Shown in pieces: positions 5,226 to 61,319 of a DNA stretch of 64,000 bases (position 1 is its first letter; each line of letters starts with the position of its first letter). The notes beneath the pieces are model-generated. The model was given only the letters and a program-made list of their open reading frames with translations. It was not told where the DNA came from and did not search any database. The position numbers and the translations under genes were made by a program. The stretch comes from a virus: positions 126,001 to 190,000 of IMG/VR virus record IMGVR_UViG_3300019487_000001, one strand, 5' to 3'.

Positions 5226-7418
5226 ATGGCTGAAATTGTCAAGATAAATGTAGATACTCGCCAAGAAGTCTACGAAAAAGATCTAAAGCCACCCATCGCT
5301 GGGTTTAATACTCCAGAGGAGTTCTTGGATCAACCCCTGCCTGGCTGGCGTTTTGACGAGCGCCGTTGGCCTGCGTTTGAAGAAGAGCAGCTTATTGAGG
5401 CTTTGCCAAACATATGGGATCCTCAAACGCTTGGTTTACAAGAAGAAGAGTTCCAGTCTGGCATAGGTGACAACCGGGATCTCGAGGTTCTTCGAATTGC
5501 AAATCTTCAATCTCAAGGACAAAACCTCTGGGTTCCAGAAGTTAATCATGGTTTTTATTATATCCATGAAGAGCCACGCTATTTGTATAGTGATCAATCA
5601 ACTGTGGAGTTTGTCACTGATGCAAACATTGTCGACGGTCACATGGAGGTACAGCTTAGATTTAATCCCAAGCCTGGGATACCGATATCTATTTTCCAGT
5701 TAAACAAGGATAGCGTTTCAAATATTATTCCTGAGAGCGGTCTCAGGAAGAGAGTTAATTTTACCGGCAAGATTGTGAACGGTGTCGAGCTTTCAACGCG
5801 GAACTCCAACAACACAATTAATTTTGCCAACGTAGATACTACGAAAGATGAATTCGTTATTGATTACGGAACGGTTCCTCCCACCTTGATCTTGAACAAG
5901 GTTTATACAGATTCTGTTGGAGAGGTGCCTGTTTTTTATTCGGATTTAATCAGCACAGAGAAGCTTGGCACCAGTAATGGTCATCCGAATCAAAGCTTCC
6001 AGGCTTCGAAAGTACCATTTGTAGTCGGATCTGCTAGGGTGTTTGTCGGGGATTCGTCTAACAGCACGTTTGTCGAATGGACCGAAGTTGAGAACTTTAA
6101 CACATCGGGGCCGCTAGACAATCATTTCATCGTCGATCCAGACATTGGTCGTATTGCATTTGGGGACGGTACAAACGGCAAGCTTCTGTCGTTACTACTG
6201 GATGTATATGTTATTTATGATCAGGGTATTTGGATAGAGTACGAACCAGAGAATACGATTGACTCAGTACTTCCTGCTGAAGCGGACCTTAATCCTGTGC
6301 ATCGAAGCTTGGAGCGAGGATTTATTTATCTTTCTGAGCGCCGCATTGACGTAGCTAATATTACCCTGGAGACTGACAAGCCTATTATTCTTGGGACCAT
6401 TGATATATACGGTCCGGTCTTTGTTGGTAATGACTTCGCACGACTTGAAGCGACTGTCCGTACAAGCACGGGCGAGCCTGTTGAAAATGTCGAGGTTATT
6501 TTTGATATGAATAACCTGCCATTTACAGGTACCATCTCTGGTTCATCGGAACAAATTAGTCGATTCACAAATAGTCAGGGAGTCGCTAGGGCGTTTTTTA
6601 ATCCTCCGAGAGCGACATCTGATCTTGGTTTCTTTACTACCCAAATAGAATCACAAGTATTACCAAACGATACACTGGTGTTAGCTGGGGCTGGTTCCTC
6701 GATTGACGCTAACACGTCAGATATCTATGTGTTTACCGTTCGTAATGACGATCCTTGGCTAGGCAAGGTGCACGCTAACAGTGATACCGAAAACGATCCG
6801 CTCGAAACTACTCGTCGCATTGTAAACCAGTTACCGTTTGAAACTGAGTTTAGACTAGAGACAGGCAAGAAGGTCGTTCTTTATCATTATGATCCTCTTG
6901 CTACCAATCCGAATACCGGAGATCCTGGTGCTTTTATACCGACTCAACCGGTCGAGATTGTTGGTAACAAGTTGCGGTTCAATCTTTCGCTACCTGATAT
7001 CTCCAATCCCATTGCCGGGTACTGGGTAGTAGCTCCAAGAAAAGTAAGTATTTTTGCGCAAGTGACAAATAAGGATTTGAATCAAACCTTTGTTTCTAAT
7101 TTGATCACATTCCAAGTTTCAGTTCCGCCGTTCCAACTGGGTGTTTTTGTTGCCAATCCTCCAGGAGTTAATATCAATAATGACGAGGATGGAACATTCC
7201 CGTTCGACAATCTTGTTAAGTATGGTTGGAGATTAAGATCTGATGGTTTAAACGATACGCGTAATCTGCCCAACCCAGGCTCGGCCTTAAACGGAATCAC
7301 ATTCCTGAATATCAATCCTGTGGCAGACGGACCTTTCGGGGGCCTCTATCACTTCTTTAACGTTCAAAATAATACTCAAAATACTGGCCAGTGTGGTCAT
7401 GTATTCAAGGTAATCTAG
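5226..7418 (+). CDS. Large baseplate-like protein with Ig (Big-1-like) domain and C-terminal GHKF tag
   Basis: The 730-residue product begins with a segment containing INVDTRQ, which is also near the N-terminus of the protein at 9369. Around residue 300 is GRIAFGDGTNGKLL. FGDGxxG is a recurring signature of phage baseplate J-like and related baseplate assembly proteins, and it also occurs in the 1040-residue protein at 16720. Residues of about 395-490 have the Big-1/invasin-type Ig pattern (TSTGEPVENVEVIF, then NSQGVARAFF). The protein ends in QCGHVFKVI, a terminal copy of the GHKF motif. Baseplate or tail-tip assembly is the likely role. Confidence 0.7.
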   Translation: MAEIVKINVDTRQEVYEKDLKPPIAGFNTPEEFLDQPLPGWRFDERRWPAFEEEQLIEALPNIWDPQTLGLQEEEFQSGIGDNRDLEVLRIANLQSQGQNLWVPEVNHGFYYIHEEPRYLYSDQSTVEFVTDANIVDGHMEVQLRFNPKPGIPISIFQLNKDSVSNIIPESGLRKRVNFTGKIVNGVELSTRNSNNTINFANVDTTKDEFVIDYGTVPPTLILNKVYTDSVGEVPVFYSDLISTEKLGTSNGHPNQSFQASKVPFVVGSARVFVGDSSNSTFVEWTEVENFNTSGPLDNHFIVDPDIGRIAFGDGTNGKLLSLLLDVYVIYDQGIWIEYEPENTIDSVLPAEADLNPVHRSLERGFIYLSERRIDVANITLETDKPIILGTIDIYGPVFVGNDFARLEATVRTSTGEPVENVEVIFDMNNLPFTGTISGSSEQISRFTNSQGVARAFFNPPRATSDLGFFTTQIESQVLPNDTLVLAGAGSSIDANTSDIYVFTVRNDDPWLGKVHANSDTENDPLETTRRIVNQLPFETEFRLETGKKVVLYHYDPLATNPNTGDPGAFIPTQPVEIVGNKLRFNLSLPDISNPIAGYWVVAPRKVSIFAQVTNKDLNQTFVSNLITFQVSVPPFQLGVFVANPPGVNINNDEDGTFPFDNLVKYGWRLRSDGLNDTRNLPNPGSALNGITFLNINPVADGPFGGLYHFFNVQNNTQNTGQCGHVFKVI

Positions 7419-9368: not shown

Positions 9369-11720
9369 ATGCCTGTACCGACTAGAGACATACAGGGACA
9401 CCGAGTAGTAGTAACCGGTATTCCTATCAGTATCAATGTTGACACTAGACAGAATGTCAAGAAGCGTCACCAGTTTATTCGCTTTGGTACATCTCTGGCA
9501 CCCAACGAAGTTAACCTAGCTTTTGCGGCAACTCCAGGTATTTCTTTGAGCAAGAATCTTCTTATATCAGATCGTAGTCAGTCTATATCTCAGAATTCAA
9601 ATGTGTTCTTGGCTAGTTCTTCAGACGAGGAATTCTTCGGACCAACGTTCAACTCCATTTACAAAGACTTTTTGGTTACCGATCAGTTCTCAGCTAATAC
9701 ACCAACTCAACGGCCTACGCCGTTTTATTATAAGCATTCCTTTGAGACCCCAGCTGATGACGTGATAGTCACTAGCCTCACTGTTACGGATAAAGATTTT
9801 AGGCCAGTGAGTACGACACAATATAAGATCGATTTAGATCGGCGTAACAGCGAAGACGGTCGTATCGGTGACTTCGTCTATCATAATTTGTTGAACACGT
9901 TCGACGAGGAGACCGGCGAATCTACGGTTTATTATGTTCGCTACACTCTGTCGAATGGGGAGTTTTTTACTAAGATTCTTAAGGCAGAAAAGATCTTCCA
10001 GCCTGCTACGTTCGAAGACGTGGACACGAATGGTAACATCTTTGAGGAAGCTCAGGTGTTTTTACTAGAGCAGCAAGGTAACACTTTCCTGCTTACGTTA
10101 CCCACGCAGAACAAATATGCTATTAGGTTTCTGGCAAATAATTCTCGTATCCAAGTTTTACCCCCAGCTGTTGGGACCAATGAAGTTCCGTGGTTTGTGC
10201 GTATCTCTAATGGTAGGTTTTTTGTAACAGATGGTTCGGCAACTTATCGTTATGAGGTAGCCGAATTTTCGCAACAGATTTTTAATCCCATAGAGCCATA
10301 CAAAATTGCAGTAGAAGAACCCGCACTGTTTGTGTCGGGTCGTATTTTGAGTCTTGGTCGGCAGAATATATTTCATAATCCAAGCAGTGGATTTTCTGTT
10401 GACATTGTTCATCGTGATCGCGAGGGCGAGATAGATCTGGGTCTTACCACAGATCCGGCCAAGTTCGATAGGGCAATCTCGGCTCTTAGCACAGCTAGGT
10501 ATAGAGAGGACGGCGGTATTCTAGGTATTGATCCATTGAGCGGAATGGTTCAAACTAGTATTGATATACCGCAGGATGGAGAGTTGACAGCGAGCTTTTT
10601 CTTTAAGGAAGAGCAGTACGAATTGACGCTTGTTAACTTTAATCCGATTCAGAATCGATCTGTATTGAATGGCCGCAAGGTTATCTATGTGGTCCCTGAG
10701 GCGGGACCAAATGGAAACTTGGGTCAAACGACTTCTGTACACATTCTGGATGTTGACAATCAGGGTATTATCCAGTCTACCACTCAAAATGGTAGTGGAG
10801 GGAATGAGAACCTAGCTAAGATAACGGGATTTGATTCTTTTGGAGACCCAATTGATAATCCCAATTCGATCGTAGTTAACAGTCTAGTTACAAGACCAAT
10901 GTATTATGATGCTATACCAGCCGTAAAACGTAATGTTGGCGTAGATTCTAATGTGGTCGGGCATCGTTTTACTACTACGATCCTAGATAACGATGGCAAT
11001 GTGATCGACAGTATTCTGTTCACGGATCGTTTCACGGTTGAAACTAAATTTGCAAACGAGAAACGGTATTTGATCCTAGCAGATATATTTGTTGCCGATC
11101 CTGACTCACCAGATTCAGTTACTCTACTTGATACCAGAATACGCGGTGGTGGTATTCGCGAGGATAGAGAAGCTGAACTCATTAAGAGGTTTCCAGAAAT
11201 TGCTTGGTTTTGGGATATCGGTTCATTGGATGGACCGCCCTTCCCGGCGGCGGCGACGTTTATTGTTAAGCTGCCCTTCAAGATCCTTGAGGAGTTTGGT
11301 GGTATATTTACCAAAGAACAAGTGCGAGATATTGTATCTAGACACGTAGCCGCAGGAGAATATCCAGTCATTCGATATTACGGAGCTATTCCGGAGATCG
11401 TTAGTCTTACGGCATCTGAGGAGACCCTTAGAGTTTGTTGGACTGGACTTGGTCCTGGTTTTAGTTATAATGTTTACTACCGTACCACGCGAACTAGCCC
11501 ATTAGTCTTGGCTAACTCTTCTCCAATTACAGACGCTGGATATGGCGAGCTTTGTTTAACGCTAGATGACTTAATGGATTTTGTTCCGTACTATGTAAGT
11601 GTGACGGCGATAGATTCTGATGGTATAGAGGGTCCGCACTCTGTGGCCTGGATCGGAATGCCTCGCCTAGTGGATCACAAAATAAAAGTTACTATAGGAC
11701 ACGTATTCACGGTCCTTTAA
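9369..11720 (+). CDS. Large tail protein with FN3 domain and GHKF motifs at both ends
   Basis: The 783-residue product has motif copies near the N-terminus (QGHRVVV), around residue 530 (VVGHRF) and as the exact C-terminus (IGHVFTVL). INVDTRQNV near residue 22 matches the protein at 5226. Residues of about 675-765 read as a fibronectin type III domain (PEIVSLTASEETLRVCW, then FVPYYVSVTAIDSDG and GPHS). FN3 domains are common surface decorations of phage tails. The remainder is beta-rich without catalytic motifs. A strong GGGGAG site precedes the start. The tail location comes from context. Confidence 0.7.
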   Translation: MPVPTRDIQGHRVVVTGIPISINVDTRQNVKKRHQFIRFGTSLAPNEVNLAFAATPGISLSKNLLISDRSQSISQNSNVFLASSSDEEFFGPTFNSIYKDFLVTDQFSANTPTQRPTPFYYKHSFETPADDVIVTSLTVTDKDFRPVSTTQYKIDLDRRNSEDGRIGDFVYHNLLNTFDEETGESTVYYVRYTLSNGEFFTKILKAEKIFQPATFEDVDTNGNIFEEAQVFLLEQQGNTFLLTLPTQNKYAIRFLANNSRIQVLPPAVGTNEVPWFVRISNGRFFVTDGSATYRYEVAEFSQQIFNPIEPYKIAVEEPALFVSGRILSLGRQNIFHNPSSGFSVDIVHRDREGEIDLGLTTDPAKFDRAISALSTARYREDGGILGIDPLSGMVQTSIDIPQDGELTASFFFKEEQYELTLVNFNPIQNRSVLNGRKVIYVVPEAGPNGNLGQTTSVHILDVDNQGIIQSTTQNGSGGNENLAKITGFDSFGDPIDNPNSIVVNSLVTRPMYYDAIPAVKRNVGVDSNVVGHRFTTTILDNDGNVIDSILFTDRFTVETKFANEKRYLILADIFVADPDSPDSVTLLDTRIRGGGIREDREAELIKRFPEIAWFWDIGSLDGPPFPAAATFIVKLPFKILEEFGGIFTKEQVRDIVSRHVAAGEYPVIRYYGAIPEIVSLTASEETLRVCWTGLGPGFSYNVYYRTTRTSPLVLANSSPITDAGYGELCLTLDDLMDFVPYYVSVTAIDSDGIEGPHSVAWIGMPRLVDHKIKVTIGHVFTVL

Positions 11721-47049: not shown

Positions 47050-50000
47050 TTAAATCCTTCCAGTAAAGTCGTTAGAAACTGAGAATTTAGTTGGTATGCT
47101 CCAGCCATTAAAATCGACTGTTAGTCGATGATCGCCGGGAGTCTCTTGTGCTATTCTAGCAACTTTAGAAACTTCTTGCAAGCTAGAAACTTTCAGTCTA
47201 ACGCCCGTGAGTTTAGCAACCAGGTCTTTTAGAGCCTCAGCTGAGTTGACAAAGAACTCAGACTTTGTTTCAGAATTTTTAACTGAGCCGTGTAACACCA
47301 CGCACTCGCCTTCCATGAGAAGATGCTGGATGTTTTCATAATTACCGGGAAACACTGTTGCTGTCATGTTACCAGTTAGATCTTCCACTGTCAACTTCGC
47401 CATCATCTTACCAGAGTATTTACTGTCTTTTTTCTTAACGGGCCACACTTCTTTTGCGGTGATGACGCCCACTATCTTGGCATGTTTTGCATCGCTGATC
47501 GCCAAAACCTGGGAGATGGTTGAATAATGCTTCTGTACTTGCTCTAGGCGCCCCTTGTATTGCTCTAATGGATGGGCACTAACGTATATACCCATAGTGA
47601 GCTTCTCAAAAGCAGCCATCGTAGCCTTGGACCATTCGTCTAGCGGTATGAGTTCGGGCTTGTCTGGTAATGATAACAGTTTCTTTTTGGTTTTACCACC
47701 CTGTTTTGTGATCTGAATCAATTCCTGTTTACGGTCATCACACACTTCCTTGCGATCTAACCAATCAACGATCTTGCCGTAGAAATCCAGTAGAGCTCGG
47801 CGTGAGTAACCGAATTCATCAAACGCTCCGCAGTAAATAAGGTGTGTCACCGATGTCTTATTGACCTTCGAACGGTTCACCTTAGACAAGAAGTGTTCAA
47901 AATCCTTAAAGCTCCCGACCTGTTTCCTAACAGACAGAATGTTTTTGTATACAGTATGCCCTATGTTCTTAATACCATTCAATCCGAACCTTACTCCCCC
48001 TTCTTCAGCGGTGAATTTGTCCCCGCTAATATTGATTGAGGGAGGAAGTATTTTGAGGTTTACTTCCTTCATAGCGTTAATAAAAGCTGCCGTCTTCTCT
48101 AGGGGATCAGACTCCGTCTGCACAGAGTTTAGACACGCACAGTAGAAATCCGAGGGATAGTAGTGTTTGAGGTAGGCAGTGTAATAAGAGAGGAAAGAGT
48201 AGGCTAGTGCGTGACTCTTATTAAACGCATATGAGACAAACTCAGATATGTTGTCGAAGAGCTCGGTGATCTTCTCTAGATCATGTCCGTTCTTAATGCC
48301 ACCTTGAACGAACTTTTCTCGCTCTTTGTCCATGACCTCTTGGATCTTTTTACCCATAGCCTTACGGAGATCATCGGCTTCCGCCAATGTATAACCACAG
48401 AGGTCCTGTGCAATCCGCATAACCTGCTCCTGGTACACGATGGTACCATGCGTGGGAGACAGGATGGGCCGAAGAGCTTCTATCTCATAAGAAACTACTT
48501 CTTCACCATTGCGTCTTTTGACGTAGGCTTCCGTATAGCCAGCTTCAAGAGGACCAGGTCGGAAAAGTGCAGTAGCAGCGGCCAGGTCTTCCATGCTTCG
48601 CGGCTGCAACTTAAGAACAAGTTCCCGGAAACCAGAAGAACCCTGAAACTGGAACACACCCGCAGTATCGCCAGAGCAAAGATCATTGTATACCTTTTCA
48701 TCTTCGAGGTCGATCGTATCGAGATCGATCTTTTTGGGTAGTCTAGGATTGATGTTTTGCAATATTTCCTTGACAACCGTGAGGGTGCGAAGGCCCAAAA
48801 AGTCGAACTTCACTAGCCCGACCGCCTCGCAGCTGTCCATATCATACTGAGTTAAGATCTTATCTTTTTCTTTGCCGTAGCAAAGAGGGACTATGTCGAT
48901 GAGTGGGGTGTTAGAGATGATTAAACCAGCTGGGTGGATAGAGATATTCTGAGAGACGCCCTCCAGGCGCTCAAGGGAGCGGAGGATCTCAGAACCTATT
49001 TGTCCTTGGAAGATCTGAGGAGCTTCTTGCTTTGTTCTCTCCAGATCGGGCTGCTTACCATGGATAGCAGCAGGAACTTGGCCGACTAGGTTGCCACATT
49101 CTGCAACAGAATAACCTAGAACTCGTCCAATATCACGAAGCCCGCCTTTGATACCCAGTGTATCAAACGTACAGATCTGGGCTACGTTCTCTTGGCCGTA
49201 TCTCTCTCTAATATATTCAATGACCCGAGGTCTAGACTCCTGGCATATGTCCGTATCAATGTCAGGTAGACCTTTACGGCCAGGATTAAGGAACCGTTCA
49301 AATAGAAGTCCGTACTTAATGGAGTCTATCTTACTAATACCCAGAGCCCATGCAGCTAATGAACCAGCAACACTCCCGCGTCCAGGTCCGATGGGGATAT
49401 CCTGACTGGTACACCAATCAATGACGTCTGCAACTATTAGGAAGTAACCCGCATAACCCATGTTCTTGATTACTTCGATCTCATAGTTGAGACGATCAAG
49501 ATATTGTTGTGGAGGTGTTTCGCCCTGGAACTTCTTAGCCAACCCCGCTCGAGCTTTTTCTTCGAACACAACGTTCTCATCGCCCTCGACCGGGGCCTTG
49601 GGCATGAAGAACTTCTTTGATAAGGGATTCCAGTCTACTTTATCGACGATCTCCTGAGTTCTATCACAATCTGCTTCGTCATGTTCCTTGAGCATTTCGT
49701 CACGAGACTTAAGATACAGATTGTCATAGATCTCGTCTTTGTAGTTGTTGAACTTCTCGTCTGTCACCTTCAGATGATACTGAATTGCTAGGAGAATACT
49801 CTGATGAATGTCATCTGAGGGTAAAAGAAAGTGACAGTCGTTCGTAGCTACAAGCGGTAGATTCCACTGAGCTGCTAATTGTTTGAGGTGGGGTCTTATA
49901 TGTTCCCGTTCTAAATCAGTACCAACTTGGGTCTCAAGATAGTAACGGCCCGGGAAGGTCTCAGAGTAGAATGTTAGGATCCTACTAATCTCTTCATGGT

Positions 50001-50544
50001 CTTTAGCTAGATTAGCACGGGAAAGTTCTGAGGAGAGGCAACCGGATAAGATCACAATACCTTCGCTGTGCTCTCTTAGCACTTCCCAGTCCACACGGGG
50101 GACATAGTAGAACCCTTCTTTGTAGGCTCTAGAGGAAAGCTTGCACAGATTATGATATCCAGTTTGGTTTATGGCGAGAGCTGTCAGATGGTAATTAAAT
50201 TTCTTCGGGGTCTTCGATATACCGCAGCCAGGTATGATTATCGAATCTTCTTTTTCAAGCTTAGGATACTTGAAGGCATCGTCTTTATCTGTCTTGTCCT
50301 TGCGTCCCATAAAACGATTGCCGAAGGCCACATATAATTCACAGCCCAGGACGGGCTTAACGCCTTCTTTAGTACAAGACTTATAGAACTCTACGGCACC
50401 AAATATATTACCATGGTCGGTAATAGCGATAGAGTTCTGGCCGATTTCTCTGACTCGGCGAGCAAGGTCTTTGATGCGAGTGGCACCATCTAATAGAGAG
50501 TACTGGCTATGATTATGGAGGTGGGTAAATAGTTTTTCAGCCAT
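47050..50544 (-). CDS. dnaE: DNA polymerase III alpha subunit (DnaE-type replicative polymerase)
   Basis: The 1164-residue length matches bacterial DnaE. The N-terminal PHP domain has HLHNHSQYSLLDG. The C-family catalytic carboxylates are in PDIDTDICQE (about 430) and VKFDFLGLRTLTVV (about 580). Helix-hairpin-helix and OB regions occur in the last third (MAKLTVEDLTGNMTATVFPG). No DEDD exonuclease domain is attached. This is the phage replicase. It implies recruitment of host clamp and loader, or phage versions outside the window. It starts 3 bp after the stop of a tagged small protein. Confidence 0.95.
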   Translation of the reverse strand: MAEKLFTHLHNHSQYSLLDGATRIKDLARRVREIGQNSIAITDHGNIFGAVEFYKSCTKEGVKPVLGCELYVAFGNRFMGRKDKTDKDDAFKYPKLEKEDSIIIPGCGISKTPKKFNYHLTALAINQTGYHNLCKLSSRAYKEGFYYVPRVDWEVLREHSEGIVILSGCLSSELSRANLAKDHEEISRILTFYSETFPGRYYLETQVGTDLEREHIRPHLKQLAAQWNLPLVATNDCHFLLPSDDIHQSILLAIQYHLKVTDEKFNNYKDEIYDNLYLKSRDEMLKEHDEADCDRTQEIVDKVDWNPLSKKFFMPKAPVEGDENVVFEEKARAGLAKKFQGETPPQQYLDRLNYEIEVIKNMGYAGYFLIVADVIDWCTSQDIPIGPGRGSVAGSLAAWALGISKIDSIKYGLLFERFLNPGRKGLPDIDTDICQESRPRVIEYIRERYGQENVAQICTFDTLGIKGGLRDIGRVLGYSVAECGNLVGQVPAAIHGKQPDLERTKQEAPQIFQGQIGSEILRSLERLEGVSQNISIHPAGLIISNTPLIDIVPLCYGKEKDKILTQYDMDSCEAVGLVKFDFLGLRTLTVVKEILQNINPRLPKKIDLDTIDLEDEKVYNDLCSGDTAGVFQFQGSSGFRELVLKLQPRSMEDLAAATALFRPGPLEAGYTEAYVKRRNGEEVVSYEIEALRPILSPTHGTIVYQEQVMRIAQDLCGYTLAEADDLRKAMGKKIQEVMDKEREKFVQGGIKNGHDLEKITELFDNISEFVSYAFNKSHALAYSFLSYYTAYLKHYYPSDFYCACLNSVQTESDPLEKTAAFINAMKEVNLKILPPSINISGDKFTAEEGGVRFGLNGIKNIGHTVYKNILSVRKQVGSFKDFEHFLSKVNRSKVNKTSVTHLIYCGAFDEFGYSRRALLDFYGKIVDWLDRKEVCDDRKQELIQITKQGGKTKKKLLSLPDKPELIPLDEWSKATMAAFEKLTMGIYVSAHPLEQYKGRLEQVQKHYSTISQVLAISDAKHAKIVGVITAKEVWPVKKKDSKYSGKMMAKLTVEDLTGNMTATVFPGNYENIQHLLMEGECVVLHGSVKNSETKSEFFVNSAEALKDLVAKLTGVRLKVSSLQEVSKVARIAQETPGDHRLTVDFNGWSIPTKFSVSNDFTGRI

Positions 50545-50547
50545 GCA

Positions 50548-50949
50548 TTATACTAGCATACCGAATCTGCCACGGTCAATCTTTTCTTTAGGAGGAGGTT
50601 CGTGGTTAACACGGAAGTAATGATGTTTTCTCCATATATCCCCCTTAGGGTTAGGCATGAACGGGAGTAGATCTGATAGGGTCACCGCTAATACGTGAGG
50701 CATTTCCTCGGTGCTCGAATGACCGCGTTGATGCATTGATGGATCAAAGGAATAGCCGTCGTCGTCCTCCTGGTTTGGATCTTTACCAGCTTCCATCCAG
50801 AACCAGTGTTTCTTTGATTTGTCATATCCAGTTAATACACAGGTGTTATGGGTAGATGACCTAAAGACATAAACGATTTGCTCTGGTCCGGCAAGTACAC
50901 GGTACAGGTGGTGTCCCCATTTGGTTTTAGGTTTTTTAGGTACAGTCAT
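50548..50949 (-). CDS. Small protein upstream of polymerase, ending in RFGMLV
   Basis: A 133-residue soluble protein, rich in aromatic and His residues (KHWFWMEAGKDPN, then RKHHYFRVNHEPPP), ending GRFGMLV, the shared C-terminal tag. It lies immediately before dnaE and overlaps the GIY-YIG gene by 14 bp. A polymerase-linked role is possible given its position. No family is recognised. Confidence 0.6.
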   Translation of the reverse strand: MTVPKKPKTKWGHHLYRVLAGPEQIVYVFRSSTHNTCVLTGYDKSKKHWFWMEAGKDPNQEDDDGYSFDPSMHQRGHSSTEEMPHVLAVTLSDLLPFMPNPKGDIWRKHHYFRVNHEPPPKEKIDRGRFGMLV

Positions 50950-51607
50950 AGCAAATCAATCTTCCTTGTTCTATGTTGCAAGTGTCACATCCACAAAGCA
51001 CATGATTTTCTTTGTCTTCTTCCGTCCATTCGTCCCAGAATGGATTTGTTACAGTAATGAACTTATCTTTTTTGCGTGCATTATTCTCGGCCTCTTCATA
51101 AAACAGAGCTGCAATAATCATGGGACCCTCGAAGTCAGGCCAGCAGCATTCCCCTCCATCATACCCTAGCGCAAAATAAACCTCTTGTCCTATTGCGAAG
51201 GGCTCCTTGCAGTACTCGCAATGCCAAGAAGATTTACGATGACCACGTGGATAGCGTCCGTTCGAAATATTATACCCTAATTCTCGAGCATTACATTCTT
51301 TTATGGCATGTTGCTCTAATATATTAATCTCTTCGTGGGTATTGGCACGAGCAAAAATGGTCCAGGGAGCCTTGGAATAAATTCTAAGTGCCCGATAAAA
51401 TGGTGTATCTTTGTGTTTTTCTAGAGCTTGATACAGATGTGCCGCTAAGCGAACAGGAAAGTTCTCGGTAGCACCAATATAAAACTTTCCGTTAGGGAAA
51501 TCTACCCGGTATAAGAGGAACGTTCCCAGGCGTGGATCGGTTTTATCCGTTACCGGAGGCCTGGGGAATGTTTCTATCCATCTACCTATTTCATTTCTTA
51601 ACTTCAT
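50936..51607 (-). CDS. GIY-YIG nuclease with C-terminal zinc ribbons
   Basis: The start at 51607 overlaps the GP88 stop as TAATG (223 residues). The nuclease core is TFLLYRVDFPNGKFYIGAT (L-Y and Y-I-G) with VRLAAHLYQAL and a later E (HEEINILE). Cysteines follow: CEYC, GGECC, CGCDTC and CYDC, giving two metal sites. GIY-YIG enzymes with fingers are often homing or resolving endonucleases; a phage-genome-specific or host-DNA-degrading role is possible. Confidence 0.75.
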   Translation of the reverse strand: MKLRNEIGRWIETFPRPPVTDKTDPRLGTFLLYRVDFPNGKFYIGATENFPVRLAAHLYQALEKHKDTPFYRALRIYSKAPWTIFARANTHEEINILEQHAIKECNARELGYNISNGRYPRGHRKSSWHCEYCKEPFAIGQEVYFALGYDGGECCWPDFEGPMIIAALFYEEAENNARKKDKFITVTNPFWDEWTEEDKENHVLCGCDTCNIEQGRLICYDCT

Positions 51608-52257
51608 TACCTGAAACAGATACCACACTTCTTACAGTTCATTTCCTTCCCTGCTTTGATACCATTCTCTACAGGGCACACCACTACACCCTCCATACGT
51701 GGCATCCTAGCTTCACGTACGGCCCTAAAAACGAGGTCTACAGGGTAGGGAGGGGTGTCGGTATCCGTCAATGCTAACCAGGCCCGCTTAAAGCCTACTG
51801 GAGGCTCTCCGGTGCCTCTATCACATGATGCCCAGACGGTTACGTTAGGTAAACTGCTGAGTTCTATTAGCTCAGGAAGGATGATAGGGATCCGCCAGCT
51901 CCTGGTGTATGTCCAGAAGTGAGTGTCCGGTCTTAGAATTGCTACTTTCGTCCACGCTTCCACGTACTCGGGGCTAAAGAAGTCCCCTCCTACATGAATA
52001 CGGAACATGGGGCCTCGTATGATTGGCACGAGGTCCAATATCTTGGCAGGATTCTCTCTTACCAGAGAAGAATTATGAGCCCAATAGGGGCCACCGAAGT
52101 ATAAACTGGTTCCTTTTGCAGCGTAACAGATCGCCGCACACTCGGCAGTCTCACCTGGACAGTCCATGTGAGGAGTTATAGAGAAACTCTGTACATGACC
52201 GAGCTTACCGTTCTCTTGAGAGAGATGAAGTTGTCCTGGAATTGTTTTTATCGGCAT
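51607..52257 (-). CDS. GP88-like phage protein with cysteine clusters
   Basis: The 216-residue protein has MDCPGETAECAAICYAAKG near residue 31, the signature of the phage gene-product-88 family, then RIHVGGDFFS, TYTRSW and a final CKKCGIC. Members are found in many phages and have unknown function; the Cys pattern suggests Fe-S or zinc binding. The ATG has no ribosome-binding site and is preceded at 11 bases by TATAAT, so the transcript may be nearly leaderless. Confidence 0.75.
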   Translation of the reverse strand: MPIKTIPGQLHLSQENGKLGHVQSFSITPHMDCPGETAECAAICYAAKGTSLYFGGPYWAHNSSLVRENPAKILDLVPIIRGPMFRIHVGGDFFSPEYVEAWTKVAILRPDTHFWTYTRSWRIPIILPELIELSSLPNVTVWASCDRGTGEPPVGFKRAWLALTDTDTPPYPVDLVFRAVREARMPRMEGVVVCPVENGIKAGKEMNCKKCGICFR

Positions 52258-52363: not shown

Positions 52364-52732
52364 TTAGAGTAACGAACCAAACCTGCTAGTATCTGAAGGT
52401 ACCACTTCTTGAGGAGTTGTAGTCTGCGTAGGTGTCAGACGGCCAATCTCTTTCTTGAGCTTTTGACATATCAAATGTAAAGCTGGCACCTGAAAGGTGA
52501 TAGGCTGTCTTGGTACTACAGACTCATATACCCAGTCAGTATGCCTATTCTTAATGCGCAAAGTCTGTTTATCTTCGTCATAATGGACATCATAGTTCAT
52601 GTCAATGGAAGAAGCAGAGGAAAGCTGAAGACGATCAACTGCCGCTAGAATAAGGGGAGTTGTGTCATCAATCCTGGCTATCCAGTTATGAAGTCTAGCC
52701 AGTTCCATTAGCTCACTAAGGTGTGTCGTCAT
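52364..52732 (-). CDS. Small hypothetical protein ending in RFGSLL
   Basis: A 122-residue soluble protein, mixed alpha/beta, ending TSRFGSLL, one of six carriers of the C-terminal tag, after a flexible Thr/Pro/Val linker. GGAGG lies upstream. The gene overlaps the previous stop by 17 bp. The motif-bearing tail looks like an extension separate from the domain. Confidence 0.6.
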   Translation of the reverse strand: MTTHLSELMELARLHNWIARIDDTTPLILAAVDRLQLSSASSIDMNYDVHYDEDKQTLRIKNRHTDWVYESVVPRQPITFQVPALHLICQKLKKEIGRLTPTQTTTPQEVVPSDTSRFGSLL

Positions 52733-52900: not shown

Positions 52901-53296
52901 TTATTCACCTGTCCTTATTGCGTCCATCGCTATCTTTTCGAATCGAGCTTTCTGAGCATACTCAGGTCCATAGATCAAACTGCTGAGACCTTTAATAAAG
53001 TTCTCGAGTTCTAGAACTTTATTAGCTAGGGCTTCTACTTTATTGTTTGCCTGTTCGGCTTTTTCCTTAGTCATCCGAAAGGTCCAATTCTCATCCATGT
53101 GCCAGCCGTTAAACTGATTTGTGAGCACCTTATTGTGGTACTCGGTCAGTATGCAATAGACGATATCTGATATCCATTCTATCCACCGGTCTTGGTCAGG
53201 CATGGGAACATTAGAACCTATACCAGAGATCTTATTCTTTACCTCATAGGCAATGCGCTGTTCCAGGTCGTCTGGTCGATAAAAAGTTTCGATCAT
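52901..53296 (-). CDS. Helical hypothetical protein
   Basis: 131 residues, ATGA-coupled to the previous gene. A likely coiled coil lies at 75-105 (EKAEQANNKVEALANKVLEL). Tryptophans occur in the middle (WIEWISDIVY). No recognised motif. Confidence 0.5.
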   Translation of the reverse strand: MIETFYRPDDLEQRIAYEVKNKISGIGSNVPMPDQDRWIEWISDIVYCILTEYHNKVLTNQFNGWHMDENWTFRMTKEKAEQANNKVEALANKVLELENFIKGLSSLIYGPEYAQKARFEKIAMDAIRTGE

Positions 53297-53844
53297 AATA
53301 GCTCCCCAAATCTTGATTTTGATTTATCATCCGCTAACACATCTTGAACATTGCCCTGTTCTATACGATCCAGTCTTTTTAGGATCTCTTCTTGCTTGCG
53401 AAGATACCAGTGCGCCAACCTAACCCAGTCGGCAATAAATTCATTGTGAGCACGAGCTTCTAGGCTATCAATTAGTCTTTGAGAATGCTCATCTTCGAGT
53501 GGCACAAAATTCTCCCGTCTTATGGCTGATCGAGCCCATGCGTCTACATCAGTGGGTCCGGTAATACGTCCTAATAAGTCTACGGGTATACTAGAAGGTT
53601 CATATATAGGTACCGTACGTGGAGCTACCAGTGGTTGTTCCGGAAGATTAGCTTGGTACCGCCACCTCTTCATCAACCAGACCTCGAATGGATCACCCGG
53701 CGTGTCGATGGAATACATCTCAGAAAAACCACGGAACTGAACTACGTTCCTCCATGAAGAGTAATAAGCACTTGCAGTGTAGGCTGTATGGGCACCACCG
53801 GGTATATCATATGATATAATCCCAAAGCCCCTATATGTCGTCAT
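53293..53844 (-). CDS. Hypothetical protein ending in RFGELL, after the GHKF scaffold gene
   Basis: The start at ATG 53844 overlaps the end of the 979-residue gene, giving 183 residues; the longer frame to 53994 runs through that gene and is not needed. The product is rich in Tyr/Trp early (YSSWRNVVQFRGF) and helical late, ending KSRFGELL, the shared tag. Its linkage to the repeat protein suggests a virion or assembly role. Confidence 0.6.
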   Translation of the reverse strand: MTTYRGFGIISYDIPGGAHTAYTASAYYSSWRNVVQFRGFSEMYSIDTPGDPFEVWLMKRWRYQANLPEQPLVAPRTVPIYEPSSIPVDLLGRITGPTDVDAWARSAIRRENFVPLEDEHSQRLIDSLEARAHNEFIADWVRLAHWYLRKQEEILKRLDRIEQGNVQDVLADDKSKSRFGELL

Positions 53845-56770
53845 CCACCAAAGCAATCTTAGCGATAGCATTCGGACCTGTATACCGGACAGTGACACGA
53901 GAATTCCGCGAAAGATTCTGGTCAGCAGTGAGATTTGCATCCGAGACTTTTTGCTCGATTGTATTTTTGTTTGCTCTGATGACTGTACCGCCAAGGTCCG
54001 CTCCCAAGAGGTCTAGTAACTTGTCCCCTCTTACTTGAATGATAGTTCCACTTATAGCATTCCCTGAAACTTCCTTCAATAATAAGATTTCTCCCACTTT
54101 ATTGGGAGCCTCTAACTGCAATTGTAATAGAGCTGGTAACCGTAGAATGAACTTGACTGTTATTGTGTCAGAGATTCTACAAATGCGTGGAGTGGCAAAG
54201 TATGGAGCTACAACTAGAGCGACGGATTCAAGGCCATCCGGGTCGAATGCACCTGGTGCATAAAATAAAGGAGATCCGTTAGACAGTTTGCCATCTCTGC
54301 CTGCACCGGGACGCAATTGGATCTCAACAATAGCCTCCGCCAGTTCTCCACCTAAGAGAGGGCCACCGAGATTGAAGGTACTCTCGAGCATGGCCGGATC
54401 GAACGGCGGGAAGATGGGGCCATTGATAATGTTCTGACCAATAACTATGTTGTTAATCTTTAGAGTGATGGTCAGTTTATCGATGGGCCACACTTGACTG
54501 ATAGCTTGACCGGGGAGATCTGAGTCTTCGAAGATGTTAAAGCCGGTCGCCTGGACTTTGATCTGGGTGTCATTCAATATCGTATCGCTACCATCCGGAT
54601 TAGATATGGTGATGTCAGTAAGATTACACTGGGGGTCCTCATTAAACCGATAGAGGTTCACGTCATAGTTATCGAACGGTATGGGGAAGATACCTTGGCC
54701 TCGCACCAACGCCGATGGCAGCGCTCCAAACAGACCGGTGCGTGTGAAGGTATGATCGGGCGTATTAAGATCCAAGCCTTCACCAGAAGCCTTTGTACTC
54801 GTAGGTGTAGCTGGTACAAAGACTGGGATCTTAATTAAACCTAGATAAGGCCTACCCCCTAGATCGATATCAAACTCCAGAGGACTTGGGTATTCCTCAC
54901 TACCGATAGGTCTGTGATCGAATGGAGTGTGATCATCGGGGGTACCTTGGCCATGTTCCACCAGGAGACCAGGGAACGGGTCATTGGTATTTGCAACACG
55001 AGGATCTGGGTGGGCAAGGATTGGGAGAAGAGGCTTTGTGAGCCGCCAGACATCTACGTCGAAAGCAGCGCTACCATCTACATCATTAAAGGTAAACGGG
55101 TAGACGTCATTCTCAATCGGATGGCGTTTGAATCCATCGCCACCGTCAAAGACAGTGGTTCCAAATGTCTGGTTCTTATTGATCTCGTATGCAACTGCGG
55201 GTACGCCACCAACTCCCAGCGTTCCCGTCTCCGGTGGTTTGTTCCCTAGAATTGAGTGCTCGAAAATGCCACGGATAAACCGGTCTATTCCGATACCGTC
55301 ATCTAGGGGTACAGGGAGATCAGAGGTGTGTCTGATCATTGAGTTCGGATCGTGGTGAATATTGTGGGGAACTCCACTATCCAAAATATCTGTATTATGA
55401 ACGTCGCTACCGACATGGGTCTTAGCGTCCAGGTCGATATCTGAGTAACCAAATCTTATTGCGACAACATTAAAATTGTCTCCGTCTAGGTCAATGATAC
55501 CCGTCGGCATAACCTGGAACCTGTGCCCTTGGAAGCCGGGCAGCTTCGGTATATTAACCTCGAACTTGTGTTGTAGAGAGTCTCGGCGGGATCCTACGCC
55601 GTTGGCAGAGAAGATGTGACCTAAGGCATCTGATCCTATATTGAAGGGCTGGAAGAACTTATGGCCCAAACTCTCGATAGTAGAGACCTGGGTAATAGCA
55701 AGGCGGTGGAAGAGGAAGTCAAAGGCTCTGAGAGCACCTTGGAACTTATGACCGAATTGATCTTCTGCATCCTGCTCGACCGCGAAACGATGGTTGAGGA
55801 CCTGACCGATGGCACTGAAGTGATGTCCTAGAGCATCTATGGTGCCAACCTCAACGGCAAGTCTATGGCCGAGGGGTTCGTTCGCATTGATGCCAGCGAT
55901 GTTAAACTCATGGCCTAGCTCATCTGTATCATCCTGAGTAACACCGAAGCGACAACCTAGGGCATCCGTAGCATTTTGGGCAACGGCAAACTTATGACCG
56001 AATGGATCTCCGAAGACACCGAAGCGATGCTCCATTTCATCTTGTGTGCTTATAGATACGGAGAACTTGTGGCCGAAGTTATCTGTTACGAATGGTAATG
56101 CAAACTTATGACCTAGCGCATCCGTAGCATCTATGTGATCAATGTTGAACTTGTGTGAGAAGTTATCTTTAGCTTGGACAGTACCGGTGAATTTGTGACC
56201 AAGGGCATCTGCCTGGTCTACAAATCCTACAGTAAACTTGTGGCCAAGTTCGTCTGTATCCCGAATCTCATTACAATTAAACCGATGACCAATGTGATTC
56301 TGAATTTCAGCACGGAACTTATGGCCTAGGGAGTCTGAAGCATTAATCTCATTGACATTAAACCTATGCCCAAACCTTTGACCTTCGTCAAAGGGATAGG
56401 GGGGAACGTCAATGCCGGGAATGGTAAATTTATGACCGAGTTGGTCGGCTGGAGTGGCGTTGAACTTATGACCTAGTTCATCTTGATCGTCGATATGATC
56501 GACGTTGAACCGGTGTCCTAGAGCATCAGTAGCACTGATGGGACTTGCGTTGAACTTATGACCGAGTGCGTCAGTAGCTTGAACAGCTACGGTAAACTTG
56601 TGCCCTAGTTCATCGGTCGCAGTAAATACCGCTGTGAACTTATGTCCGAGTGCATCAGTCGCATCAATATGATCGACGTTAACCCTATGCCCTAGGGCAT
56701 CGGTTCCGAATTCGCCGAACTGAATAACGACGGCACATAAAAGAGGTATGTTAATGGGGGTACAGGACAA
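53831..56770 (-). CDS. 979-residue protein with about 28 tandem GHKF-type repeats and beta-rich C-terminal region
   Basis: Residues 20-420 are almost wholly tandem copies of a 10-22-residue unit (mostly about 14-15), consensus [AE]LGH[KR]F-x-[VA]-x(3-5)-[AT]-[TD]-D. Examples are TDALGHKFNV and DELGHKFTV; exceptions include LGCRF and LFHRL. Residues 420-979 are beta-rich domains without motifs. Shared phrases with the + strand tail proteins (VDHID, GHEFNIAGI) indicate a common origin. The start is uncertain: a TTG at 56770 with only GGGAAG 12 bp upstream; no better in-frame start exists before the first repeat. Probably a large virion or scaffold protein; I recognise no known family. Confidence 0.75.
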   Translation of the reverse strand: MSCTPINIPLLCAVVIQFGEFGTDALGHRVNVDHIDATDALGHKFTAVFTATDELGHKFTVAVQATDALGHKFNASPISATDALGHRFNVDHIDDQDELGHKFNATPADQLGHKFTIPGIDVPPYPFDEGQRFGHRFNVNEINASDSLGHKFRAEIQNHIGHRFNCNEIRDTDELGHKFTVGFVDQADALGHKFTGTVQAKDNFSHKFNIDHIDATDALGHKFALPFVTDNFGHKFSVSISTQDEMEHRFGVFGDPFGHKFAVAQNATDALGCRFGVTQDDTDELGHEFNIAGINANEPLGHRLAVEVGTIDALGHHFSAIGQVLNHRFAVEQDAEDQFGHKFQGALRAFDFLFHRLAITQVSTIESLGHKFFQPFNIGSDALGHIFSANGVGSRRDSLQHKFEVNIPKLPGFQGHRFQVMPTGIIDLDGDNFNVVAIRFGYSDIDLDAKTHVGSDVHNTDILDSGVPHNIHHDPNSMIRHTSDLPVPLDDGIGIDRFIRGIFEHSILGNKPPETGTLGVGGVPAVAYEINKNQTFGTTVFDGGDGFKRHPIENDVYPFTFNDVDGSAAFDVDVWRLTKPLLPILAHPDPRVANTNDPFPGLLVEHGQGTPDDHTPFDHRPIGSEEYPSPLEFDIDLGGRPYLGLIKIPVFVPATPTSTKASGEGLDLNTPDHTFTRTGLFGALPSALVRGQGIFPIPFDNYDVNLYRFNEDPQCNLTDITISNPDGSDTILNDTQIKVQATGFNIFEDSDLPGQAISQVWPIDKLTITLKINNIVIGQNIINGPIFPPFDPAMLESTFNLGGPLLGGELAEAIVEIQLRPGAGRDGKLSNGSPLFYAPGAFDPDGLESVALVVAPYFATPRICRISDTITVKFILRLPALLQLQLEAPNKVGEILLLKEVSGNAISGTIIQVRGDKLLDLLGADLGGTVIRANKNTIEQKVSDANLTADQNLSRNSRVTVRYTGPNAIAKIALVDDDI
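55500..56710 (-). repeat. Tandem array coding for the GHKF peptide
   Basis: About 28 coding units of 30-66 bp (mostly 42-48). Codons vary widely among units encoding the same residues, so selection acts on the peptide, not on the DNA. Neighbouring units share longer phrases in places (ATDALGHKF), suggesting repeated unequal exchange. Confidence 0.85.
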
Positions 56771-56949: not shown

Positions 56950-57825
56950 CTATTCTTGTAAAAAGGTTATGTTACCGTATCCAGCAAAGCCGCCGTTGGG
57001 TTTGAATAATCGATAGACGTCGGCGCCGTCGGTAAGAGTATCACGGGATACCCAAAATCCATCTGTTGCCAGAGCAAAGATGTCTAGTAATCTACCGCGA
57101 TAATGCCTATTGAGAGCTCCGTGACTCGTCGGAGAGACCAGAAAGAAGCTATACAGATACCATCTGTTATCCCAAACACTGGGATTAGCTAGGTTATGGT
57201 CAATGACAGAGATACTTGCCAAGAACGGATCGTTCTCAGCAAATGGATCTGGTGCACTTGCAACTGCACCTGTACCTGCCGTATTGAAGGTCTGCAGGCT
57301 ACCGCCGCTTCCAGTTGTACCGTTACCGTTTACTGCCACTACCGGTACTGGATCTTGCGCTGGGGTATGAAGACGTGCGTATGTCCCAAAGTAGAACAAC
57401 GAAATGATCCCTGTATGAGAGATGTCTCCCTCTAGGGCAATAATGATCCTGTCTTTAGAGACAGAGATCCAGAAGGCAACCAGATCGTTTTCTGATACGA
57501 AGTTACCATCTGTAAATACTTCCTGATTGAATTGCTCGGTCACCACCGTCATGCCAGCATTCAAACCGCCACGCCATCTCTGGTTTCGCTGAGGAGTTCC
57601 CTCTCCTAGCCACTGCCAGTACATGTCGATTTGGTTAATGTTCGTAGGAATGCCGCCACTAGTTGGACAACGAGCGATTCTTAATGACACATTGGTTCTT
57701 TCCCATGCGTCTCCTGGAGCTGCCGTCACGCTGTTCCCGTTAGCTGCGACAAATCCAGTAACAAGATCATAGATCTGTTGATCTACGTCTTGCCATGTGA
57801 GTGTTCCTGTTAAAAAGGATGTCAC
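56950..57825 (-). CDS. Probable virion surface protein
   Basis: The 291-residue protein is beta-rich and soluble, with Gly/Asn loops, aromatic clusters (IDMYWQWLGEG, then DNRWYLYSFFLVSP) and an end FAGYGNITFLQE. The style resembles fibre or head decoration proteins. It lies two bases after the zinc-ribbon gene stop and upstream of the GHKF gene. It has no GHKF motif. No family is recognised. Confidence 0.55.
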   Translation of the reverse strand: MTSFLTGTLTWQDVDQQIYDLVTGFVAANGNSVTAAPGDAWERTNVSLRIARCPTSGGIPTNINQIDMYWQWLGEGTPQRNQRWRGGLNAGMTVVTEQFNQEVFTDGNFVSENDLVAFWISVSKDRIIIALEGDISHTGIISLFYFGTYARLHTPAQDPVPVVAVNGNGTTGSGGSLQTFNTAGTGAVASAPDPFAENDPFLASISVIDHNLANPSVWDNRWYLYSFFLVSPTSHGALNRHYRGRLLDIFALATDGFWVSRDTLTDGADVYRLFKPNGGFAGYGNITFLQE

Positions 57826-57826
57826 C

Positions 57827-58156
57827 CTATACCACCTCTTGCTTCTCTTCTCCCTTGACTTGAGCCTGCTGCTCTAAGATTGCAGCCTGCTTAGCCTTAA
57901 ACTCTTCTATGTCTTTTTCGATGAGCTCGCGTCGCTTAAGGGCGACACATACTCGTCTGGTCTTGGGGTTGAAATACTGGTACGGTTCTAACGGACACGC
58001 AGGTCCGCATTTGTAAGGACGGATCTCTTTCTTGAGAGCATGTTCCGCAGTCCAGCCCTGCTTGAACGTAAGCTTAAGAGCGTCGTACGCTTCCCGGGTA
58101 GCAACAGTTTCAGATAAACCACACTTCTTGCAACTGTAAGTATAGCTCTTAGGCAT
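57827..58156 (-). CDS. Small zinc-ribbon protein coupled to recA
   Basis: ATG 58156 lies within the recA end (8-bp overlap); a longer frame to 58243 runs through recA and is rejected. The 109-residue product has [11 protein letters not shown] (residues 7-17) and [15 protein letters not shown] (about 52-66) as four cysteines, followed by a charged helical tail. It may be a RecA-associated or DNA-binding accessory. Confidence 0.6.
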
Positions 58157-59213
58157 TGCGCTTAACCCTTTCAAGTACAAGGTTACGTAGCTTAGTAAAC
58201 AAAGCTCCGTTGGTACGGAGTAATTCTTTGACGGAATCGGCACCCTGACCTAAGCGCTCGCCTTCAAATGAATACCAGGATCCTGCCTTTTCTATGATGT
58301 TGAGATCAGTGGCGAGTGATAAAACCTCCCCGGCTTTATCCACACCCTGGCCAAATATAAGATCGAACTCGCACTGCTTAAAGGGTGGAGCTACTTTATT
58401 TTTGACAACCTTAACCTTGGTAGAGTTACCAACGGTATTAGGATCATCGCCTTCAACCTGAGATTTTTCTTTCACTGCTCCGGTCCTACGAACATCTAGT
58501 CGAATCGTAGCATAGAACTTGAGAGCGTTACCGCCGGTCGTCGTTTCAGGACTGCCAAACACAACACCGATCTTAGATCGAAGCTGGTTAATAAAGATGA
58601 TTACCGGGCCGGTTTCATGATCTCCGAGAAAGCCTACCATCTTCCTCATAGCTTGGCTCATGAGGCGGGCCTGAAGGCCCATGTGACTGTCGCCTATCTC
58701 GCCTTCGATTTCGGCTTGAGGAACTAGGGCCGCGACAGAATCTATAAGAATAACATCGACAGCCTTAGACTCGATAAGCTCTTGAACGATCTGAAGAGCT
58801 TGCTCGCCGGAATCTGGCTGGGACAGTAAAAGTTCATCAGCATCTACACCCAAATTAACGGCATAGTTCATATCCAGGGCGTGCTCTGCGTCTACGATAG
58901 CAGCTATGCCCCCAGACTTCTGTGCGTTAGCTACCACCTGAAGACCGAGAGTTGTTTTGCCTGTACTCTCAGGCCCAAAGATCTCAGTAATAGCACCACG
59001 GGGCAAACCACCTACGCCCAGGGCTATATCTAAACCCAAGGAACCAGTGGAGATGGATCGTGGACTTGTTACGGCATCAAGACCGTATTTGGCAATAGCA
59101 CCTTTACCAAAATTCTTGGTGATTGTAGCGAGAGCTACTTGTAGGCGCTTCTCTTTATCGGGATCGGAAACCTTAATAGTTTCAGGGACTTCGTCATCTT
59201 TTTTCTTAGACAT
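58149..59213 (-). CDS. recA: RecA recombinase
   Basis: The 354-residue enzyme has standard length and motifs: [11 protein letters not shown] Walker A (about residue 68), [18 protein letters not shown] Walker B and loop L1 region, [20 protein letters not shown] loop L2. N-terminal TKNFGKGA-like and [15 protein letters not shown] segments are present. It is closer to bacterial RecA than to T4 UvsX. It supports strand exchange, recombination-dependent replication and repair. It is directly controlled by the near-consensus promoter at 59241-59269. Confidence 0.95.
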
Positions 59214-59747: not shown

Positions 59748-60341
59748 CTAAGTCCTCCTCTTTTCTATTTCTATTTTAATTTGCTCGAGTAAGTATAGCC
59801 AATTGTGGTTAGGCAGTCTATGAATATTCTCATAATTCTTTTCACAATCACCATAGACAGTTTGATTATATGAATGCGGGGGAACAAAGACTTTGATCCC
59901 TGCAGCTGCACATTTATGCGCCACCGTTGGGTGGTCGTCAACTAGGATTGGTATGTGGTTTGCTAGACAGATGTCTTGCTTCTCATTAGTGAACGCAATC
60001 CAGTCGTAATGTATCTTGTACTGCGACAGCCACCAATGAGTGTCTTGGACGATCTCAGGATACTGCCAGCGGTGGGTGATGATAGCAATTTCACAACCCC
60101 AAGTCTCGTGAAGCTCTTTAATGACTGACGGAATATTAGGATCAATAATGGGAGCATTTCTAAATACAAATGGAGTGAAGGCTATCTTCTCCATCCTCTT
60201 ATCTGAGACACCTGGTATCCGGGCACGAGTGCCTTGCATCTGGTTTGGATCAAAAGTCTTACCTAGCTTGAGACTACATACCTCAGAGAAAAATTGATTA
60301 AACGCAACGATGGTATTATCGAGGTCAAAGGCTATTTTCAT
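59748..60341 (-). CDS. HAD-family 5'(3')-deoxyribonucleotidase-like phosphatase
   Basis: The 197-residue product has motif I AFDLDNTIVAF (residues 4-14), motif II Thr (IAIITHR), Lys (NEKQDICLA) and motif IV PILVDDHPTVAH. The arrangement matches small HAD nucleotidases (NT5C-like). It dephosphorylates deoxynucleotides, or another small phosphate ester. The motif I second Asp (D-L-D) is intact, so it should be active. Confidence 0.8.
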   Translation of the reverse strand: MKIAFDLDNTIVAFNQFFSEVCSLKLGKTFDPNQMQGTRARIPGVSDKRMEKIAFTPFVFRNAPIIDPNIPSVIKELHETWGCEIAIITHRWQYPEIVQDTHWWLSQYKIHYDWIAFTNEKQDICLANHIPILVDDHPTVAHKCAAAGIKVFVPPHSYNQTVYGDCEKNYENIHRLPNHNWLYLLEQIKIEIEKRRT

Positions 60342-60825
60342 AGCTAACCTCCAAGTATTGAACTGCTAATCTAATGCGTTCCGGGCTATCATTGAAGCAC
60401 CCGATTCCTTGGTTACACTTCTCGCACAACAGGCCCCTGATTCGGCCAGTTGTATGACAATGGTCTACGGCAAACGCCTTACTGAACTCATCTCTATGCT
60501 GGGAACACACTGCACAAAGGAAGTTTTGTTGACCTAAAATACGATCATATTCTGATGCAGTAATACCAAACTTGTTCTTCAAGCGAGCGTTTCGCCTCTG
60601 TTCATATGTTAACTCGATGCGAGCTCGTTGTGATATCTTTTCAAAGTTCTTTTCGTACCAGGCCTTATTGCGAGCGTTAGAGTATTCTTTATTTCTTAGA
60701 TACCAGCTAGCTGCGAACGCTTTCACACAAACCTTGCAACACCAGGCAAGCCCGCCCTTCCTCTTCCTTGACTTATGGAACTCTGATTCTTGCTTGTTGT
60801 ATTTGCAACGGGGGCATTTCTTCAT
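60325..60825 (-). CDS. Recombination endonuclease VII (HNH, T4 gp49-like)
   Basis: The 166-residue enzyme starts CPRCKYNKQESEFHKS and has a second C-x2-C (WCCKVC). The core FGITASEYDRILGQQNFLC, then CSQH, FAVDHCHTTGRIRGLLC and EKCNQGIGCFNDSP is the endonuclease VII family pattern (DHCH, G-L-L-C, N-x-x-x-G). Such enzymes resolve Holliday and branched DNA before packaging. Second junction-resolving function in this window, with RusA. Confidence 0.9.
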   Translation of the reverse strand: MKKCPRCKYNKQESEFHKSRKRKGGLAWCCKVCVKAFAASWYLRNKEYSNARNKAWYEKNFEKISQRARIELTYEQRRNARLKNKFGITASEYDRILGQQNFLCAVCSQHRDEFSKAFAVDHCHTTGRIRGLLCEKCNQGIGCFNDSPERIRLAVQYLEVSYENSL

Positions 60826-61319
60826 GGATGTTCGATTGTCCCTTTAGGATAAACCTTTAATGACTCGAACTCGTCACAGCTTTCACTTGTCCAGGAATCG
60901 CTAGGATCATCTAACTTGGCAAGCATCTTCTCAATGATCACGCGCCACATCTCGCTCGTGTATCCACGTGGCTCCATGGACCGATTGGCAACGTTTAACT
61001 CGAAGTTAGGTTTCCAATACGTGAACTTAACTTTATAGTATCTGGGGATCTGTTGAAGGACTAGAGCCCTGTCATACATAGAGAGGTTGACGTCGTCCAC
61101 GATAATATTATCACCGTGAAGACAAGCCGTGCGGATAAGACTCAAGAACATCTTGTCATAGAGAATCGCCATGTCCTCACGGAAGTCATATGAACCTCCA
61201 TGGCACATATAGATCAGCTGGTCTTTATTGATTACGGTATATCCGTCAAGCATCCGCCTGCGGGTGTACGTGGACTTGCCGGATCCCGGCAAGCCTATTA
61301 AGATATCTGCTGTAGGCAT
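60822..61319 (-). CDS. P-loop kinase, polynucleotide-kinase-like
   Basis: A 165-residue protein with Walker A LIGLPGSGKSTYTRR (residues 7-21), VINKDQL, IIVDDVNLS (Walker B-like D-D-V-N) and a C-terminal NRSMEPRGYTSEMWRVI lid-type segment. The size and pattern match the 5'-kinase domain of T4 Pnkp-like enzymes. It may phosphorylate nucleic-acid ends or a hypermodified base. It has no phosphatase domain, though a HAD gene lies close by. Confidence 0.75.
   Translation of the reverse strand: MPTADILIGLPGSGKSTYTRRRMLDGYTVINKDQLIYMCHGGSYDFREDMAILYDKMFLSLIRTACLHGDNIIVDDVNLSMYDRALVLQQIPRYYKVKFTYWKPNFELNVANRSMEPRGYTSEMWRVIIEKMLAKLDDPSDSWTSESCDEFESLKVYPKGTIEHP

Follow-up and report, generated by a model that had tools for sequence, protein, structure and literature searches.

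The window analyzed here (64,000 nucleotides, C1:126001-190000 of an IMG/VR contig of 194,631 bases, C1; positions without a prefix are those of the window) holds on its minus strand, at 53831 to 56770, an ORF for a protein of 979 amino acids, called here the array protein. Twenty-eight tandem units with the consensus D-x-L-G-H-[KR]-F-x-[VAI] fill its residues ~22 to 421 (55508 to 56707, minus strand), while the C-terminal 558 residues (53831 to 55507, minus strand) are unit free. The start of the protein is uncertain, as a TTG lies right behind a stop codon and the first in-frame ATG does not appear before unit 16. The units are 11 to 22 residues apart, with a median of 14 (15, 14, 14, 15, 15, 12, 22, 15, 12, 15, 15, 14, 15, and 13 for the first 14 spacings and 14, 11, 14, 14, 15, 14, 11, 14, 14, 15, 15, 16, and 15 for the last 13). 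Counting from the histidine, Asp(-4) is found in 22 of the 28 units, Leu/Phe(-2) in 25, Gly(-1) in 23, His(0) in 27, Lys/Arg(+1) in 25, Phe(+2) in 25, and Val/Ala/Ile(+4) in 23. One strand face reads as hydrophobic (L, F, V) and the other as polar. A regular expression for the core matched 23 times in residues 1 to 425; shuffling the residues 10,000 times gave 0.14 matches on average and never more than 3.

At the DNA level, TRF detected only a weak 2.7-copy array of 42 nt (69% matches), and the 27 units with a histidine use both of its codons (CAT in 17, CAC in 10), which indicates that the array is not a recent DNA expansion. When units were compared with each other, the five-codon core L-G-H-K-F showed 0.87 synonymous differences per site, near saturation, and 0.23 nonsynonymous ones (pN/pS of 0.26), whereas the linker between cores had a pN/pS of 0.85 (a ratio of 0.66 to 0.77). 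From the diverged codons and the low core ratio it follows that the array is old and its core under purifying selection, and the gradient from core to linker fits what would be expected of conserved motifs on free linkers. The initial annotation had described about 28 copies of a GHKF-type motif in one protein, mostly of about 14 to 15 residues, with a near-invariant His-[KR]-Phe between variable linkers, and all of this was borne out by the counts. We consider this description of the array, as well as the sharing of its unit with other proteins (see below), firm as sequence facts.

By its terminase, portal, capsid, and sheath, which are homologous and collinear with those of group members, the contig is a 0305phi8-36-like large myovirus. 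Its terminase relatives are Acinetobacter phage ME3 (whose annotation cites homology with Bacillus phage 0305phi8-36), Moorella phage MTATph1, and Bacillus phage KLEB27-3, and sheath and portal match PHROGs of the same three phages. Relatives in IMG/VR were gathered through terminase and capsid alignments, among which G003 (126 kb) shows the best synteny, with head, tail, and baseplate genes in collinear order and a capsid identity of 69% over 396 residues. The large terminase gene (C1:70228-73284, 1019 amino acids) appears to bear an intein, as the mature half resumes at the junction between ...LYVLANGLVTHN and TT, the point at which the homology of the relatives begins.

Searches with tblastn and against Pfam, PHROG, NCBIfam, and PDB sequences found no relative of the array protein, and in the last four libraries no match covered the units or the 558-residue C-terminal region. 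Direct scans of IMG/VR (queried by the entire protein, a stretch of 67 residues, DnaE, and the unit alignment) and of GTDB genomes gave no confirmed match. The unit alignment compared to 98 related records retrieved one weak match, on two near-identical contigs, which is a genuine C-terminal unit. Some candidates were discarded: a tblastn match in Microcystis phage Mel-JY01 is a low-complexity G-T-S-G stretch read in another frame, one in Vibrio phage BONAISHI (E=0.9) was not credible, IMG/VR contig L015, picked up by a DNA pattern, was a chance hit in a contig without the repeat, and Pfam matches to FlK and Ig fell below the cutoff. The statement that no described family has this consensus thus holds for Pfam, PHROGs, NCBIfam, and PDB, but it overlooked a precedent in kind, the repetitious domain of 0305phi8-36 (PMC2147016).

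The unit in other proteins of the genome and its relatives

The profile made from the 28 units matched further proteins of the same genome. At a unit score of at least 12 there were 17 occurrences outside the array and none in reversed proteins, and the unit is present on the array protein and at least six others. Two of them are paralogous array proteins detected with the unit profile. One of 377 amino acids lies outside the window (C1 77.3-78.4 kb) and carries ~15 units, 11 to 84 residues apart, with long stretches of other sequence between them. The other, of 336 amino acids (1950 to 2960, plus strand), belongs to an accessory module, has no homolog in relatives, and carries ~10 degenerate units. 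At 2080 to 2770 it also contains a second repeat of ~50 residues (FIGASNTESGGEKVTRIKGLNKF...SHKFHV) in about three copies, each including a unit-like HKFHV. Accessory-module genes on the plus strand further include one that bears two units at its N terminus (AKQGHRFGVKQDSLGHKF) and, behind them, a domain that matches no family and looks beta-rich by eye (2960 to 3667), one with a weak pair of units at the N terminus and another unit, YLKHKFTVI, at the C terminus (3670 to 4254), and, in the module of the 336-residue paralog, a unit-free gene of 644 amino acids (7 to 1941) that is absent from syntenic relatives. The unit is also found in three core proteins, all encoded on the plus strand: a baseplate-region protein of phrog_21059 whose only unit, ENFSHQFKVKL, is N-terminal (4264 to 5223), a protein ending in CGHVFKVI (5226 to 7418), and one with an N-terminal unit (DIQGHRVVVTGI) and a C-terminal one, TIGHVFTVL (9369 to 11720).

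In related IMG/VR phages the unit is single-copy, placed at the extreme N or C terminus in two or three families of baseplate-region proteins, to which these three core proteins of the window also belong. In homologs of 9369-11720 and 4264-5223 the N-terminal starts are SVGGHKFKVSQV, SILGQQFQVSAV, DGLGHEFTVGSV, TYLGHTFDIESI, SSLGLQFTVNEV, SGFGHKFNVHEI, QAISHEFTIAEI, and ETLGHQFTVGSV, and the C-terminal units of relatives are the final residues TTDALGMSFTVP (including DALGMSFTVP), NNALEMQFTVV, and NFLSQRFTVIS. Some homologs lack the N-terminal extension entirely, and in other relatives (G54_53247, G56_52104) the unit sits between a domain upstream and the phrog_21059-type core, linking the two. 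A LamG-like domain of one relative (G54_52326) gave a weak internal match that we judged convergent, showing that a motif this short can also be matched through convergence.

To avoid circularity, we compared the two sets of units with models that were each built from one side only. The N-terminal alignment columns of 18 relatives of 9369-11720, taken without hand-picking and with no sequence from this genome, were turned into an HMM and searched against all predicted proteins of this genome and of 10 related contigs plus parts of three named phages. The HMM ranked the array protein first (E=6.4e-6; best reversed-sequence match, E=0.58), and next behind its training set came two unit proteins of this genome. 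An earlier relatives-only HMM had given E=8e-20, but its seeds were chosen by eye, and the unpicked model was therefore preferred. With a matrix derived from the array alone, the N terminus fell in the top 5% of the protein's own internal windows for 12 of the 18 relatives of 9369-11720 and for 8 of 20 members of the 4264-5223 family, several of which have no extension. The terminal-unit families of relatives (phrog_21059-like and 9369-11720-like) thus share with the array the core L-[GS]-[HQ]-x-F-x-[VI], although in a single terminal copy and with a laxer histidine, often replaced by Q, S, N, L, or M, instead of tandem copies in which it is near invariant. Since it is less strict in relatives, the role of the histidine may be specific to the array. 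Single units are terminal while those of the array protein fill residues 22 to 421, so that the latter is a concatemer of the unit and not a terminal-unit protein.

Modeled by AlphaFold with 19 sequences, the 9369-11720 protein showed a folded core, with a mean pLDDT of 70.5, whereas residues 1 to 56 and 765 to 783, which hold both terminal units, had a pLDDT below 50 and no secondary structure. Disorder in this monomer model is weak evidence, because the terminal alignment columns are shallow. Foldseek matched the model to FN3 domains in the PDB over ~100 residues, and the only long matches were to unnamed or uncharacterized viral proteins.

Accessory modules and distribution of the array

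If one chance match, judged so by eye, is set aside, chains of at least four motifs occurred in only three proteins, all of this genome. Their genes lie in three blocks that are missing from G003 at collinear joints: one between the homologs flanking C1 73.8-78.4 kb, another reaching from the gene left of the window up to 4264, and the third, with the 979-residue array gene, between dnaE (47050 to 50544) and recA (58149 to 59213), which are adjacent in G003. The array-bearing genes had no homolog in the 10 related contigs and another 10 loci, nor did those compared with named phages, and no tandem array was found in any of the relatives examined, so that conservation between phages gives no hint of what the array does. 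The 979-residue array gene is located far from the baseplate genes. Its upstream neighbor (56950 to 57825, minus strand) is a unit-free member of a virion structural protein family (phrog_9130, E=6e-6) and is absent from all relatives examined. None of the libraries searched places the array protein in the virion; we infer its presence there from its paralogs and this neighbor.

The blocks contain other genes of note. Ahead of the 377-residue unit protein there are two adjacent structural-looking paralogs (C1:73749-77235), 30% identical over 593 columns and absent from relatives. The block between dnaE and recA includes a Cys-rich ORF of 216 amino acids (51607 to 52257) with a radical-SAM or gp88-like look (MDCPGETAECAAICYAAKGT...).

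Possible roles of the unit

In our preferred reading, to which we give about even odds, the unit serves as a docking strand and the 979-residue protein as a 28-valent adaptor in a tail or baseplate appendage system. In its normal form the unit, L-G-H-x-F-x-V-x-x-[IV], would be the single free N- or C-terminal tail of a baseplate-region protein, serving tail/baseplate assembly in this phage lineage and folding only upon adding to a partner. The array protein would carry 28 copies of it on flexible linkers of 4 to 15 residues, together with a separate C-terminal region of 558 residues. It might then fill many copies of the site that receives single tails, or else hold many partner subunits and thereby recruit or space an accessory tail structure. 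The paralogs with ~15, ~10, 3, and 2 units would belong to this structure as well, with core baseplate-region proteins using the unit as single copies and accessory proteins using it in bulk. The alternation L-x-H-x-F-x-V, the tolerance of linker length, the unstructured tails, and the conservation gradient all fit a docking strand, and the 28 copies suggest a built-in multisocket adaptor for appendage assembly. The idea of the initial annotation that this is a multivalent protein with repeated binding sites gains indirect support from the single units at free termini of baseplate-region proteins across the clade. Binding to a partner, the virion location, and the stoichiometry of the array protein are inferred, and neither a partner nor a receptor site was found.

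This architecture has some precedents. In 0305phi8-36, a repetitious domain (paralogue family a) is common to six ORFs (Virol J 2007, PMC2147016), and its authors proposed that it anchors accessory structures to the virion; the modules for curly fibers carry this family and are absent from a relative (PMC2147016). In both phages a repetitious module is shared by several genes, which in 0305phi8-36 encode virion proteins, within modules that are missing from a relative. However, the repeat of paralogue family a has ~50 residues, whereas here the core has 7 and arrays reach 28 copies, and the two were compared by description only. Outside phages, CsoS2 and EPYC1 are scaffolds of CO2-fixing compartments, with many short motif copies on flexible linkers and known partners; the array protein is likened to them by architecture alone. 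It is akin to known multivalent short-motif scaffolds and to repetitious virion anchors, yet unusual for a virion.

More tentatively, and with a probability clearly below even, the unit could be a lineage-wide peptide plug, an attachment code for tail and baseplate parts, with the array protein as a rail of 28 plugs that sets the number or spacing of appendages. Little is understood of how large myoviruses attach many different accessory fibers to a single tail, and the majority of their virion genes are without a family match. A short, transferable terminal peptide on unrelated baseplate-region proteins, together with a natural 28-copy concatemer, makes such an attachment code testable. If it is true, the units would be modular tags for decorating phage tails and would help to recognize accessory virion proteins missed by every family model.

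A fiber shaft is possible but rather unlikely. Each unit would be a beta strand of a homotrimeric or solenoid-like shaft, the array protein would be a whisker or tail fiber that ends in a C-terminal tip, and the lone terminal units would be vestigial or capping strands. Beta-solenoid and triple beta-spiral fiber shafts do have short repeats of ~15 residues with alternating hydrophobic positions, comparable to the strand-like alternation and the 14-to-15-residue mode seen here, and the modules of the paralogs lie beside head and baseplate genes, as do the curly-fiber modules of 0305phi8-36. An AlphaFold model of seven units, poor as it is, has one short strand in each, although at a pLDDT of 40 it is unusable and its confidence too low for any fold. 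The near-constant coil length of a shaft is not found, neither in the array with its irregular spacing nor in the 377-residue paralog with up to 84 residues between units, and lone units on the free ends of unrelated proteins could form no shaft. The solenoid proposed in the initial annotation is disfavored by these same spacings and has no support from the unusable model.

Still less likely is a homotypic zipper, in which units pair mutually and the array cross-links unit-bearing baseplate and accessory tails with no need for a separate receptor. The breadth of proteins that carry the unit and its hydrophobic and polar faces would suit such pairing, but the single units of relatives exist without any array and must have a role independent of it, and 28 self-pairing copies on one chain would tend to collapse on themselves. 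We regard as very unlikely that the near-invariant histidine binds a metal or a host surface polymer, with repetition providing avidity: it is not conserved in relatives, and, even if propeller-, LamG-, or Ig-like domains (types assigned by eye) precede the unit in some of them, its terminal place on baseplate-region proteins points to assembly over surface display. Least probable is a polyprotein cut into peptides like the internal head peptides of phages, or a processing or modification site, since, for all the regularity of the short units and the basic residue behind most histidines, this residue varies in relatives (Q, E, T, S, V), cleavage at units that are the last residues of several proteins would remove almost nothing, and no matching protease was identified.

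Apart from the unit of the array, other sequences recur along the contig. Three ORFs (50548 to 50949, 52364 to 52732, and 53293 to 53994) end in [GSNT]-R-F-x-x-L-[LVIT] (RFGSLL, RFGELL, RFKKLL, and the like), an ending found in ~21 otherwise unrelated proteins of the contig (for example, C1:61303-61827, 170269-170823, and 188732-189043). The regular expression [RK]F..[LIVM] matched the last 10 residues of 24 of 253 ORFs, compared to 2.1 expected from internal 10-mers and 0 to 1 in each relative. This ending looks like a second peptide code, perhaps a tag at the C terminus for one shared hub, a clamp for example. A small Cys-rich protein starting with ACTRC/KCNKC is also present as four paralogs, 32 to 39% identical, at scattered sites (C1:69687-70250, 88874-89407, 121729-122259, and 186328-186843, the last at 60328 to 60843 of the window), which are probably homing-endonuclease-like.
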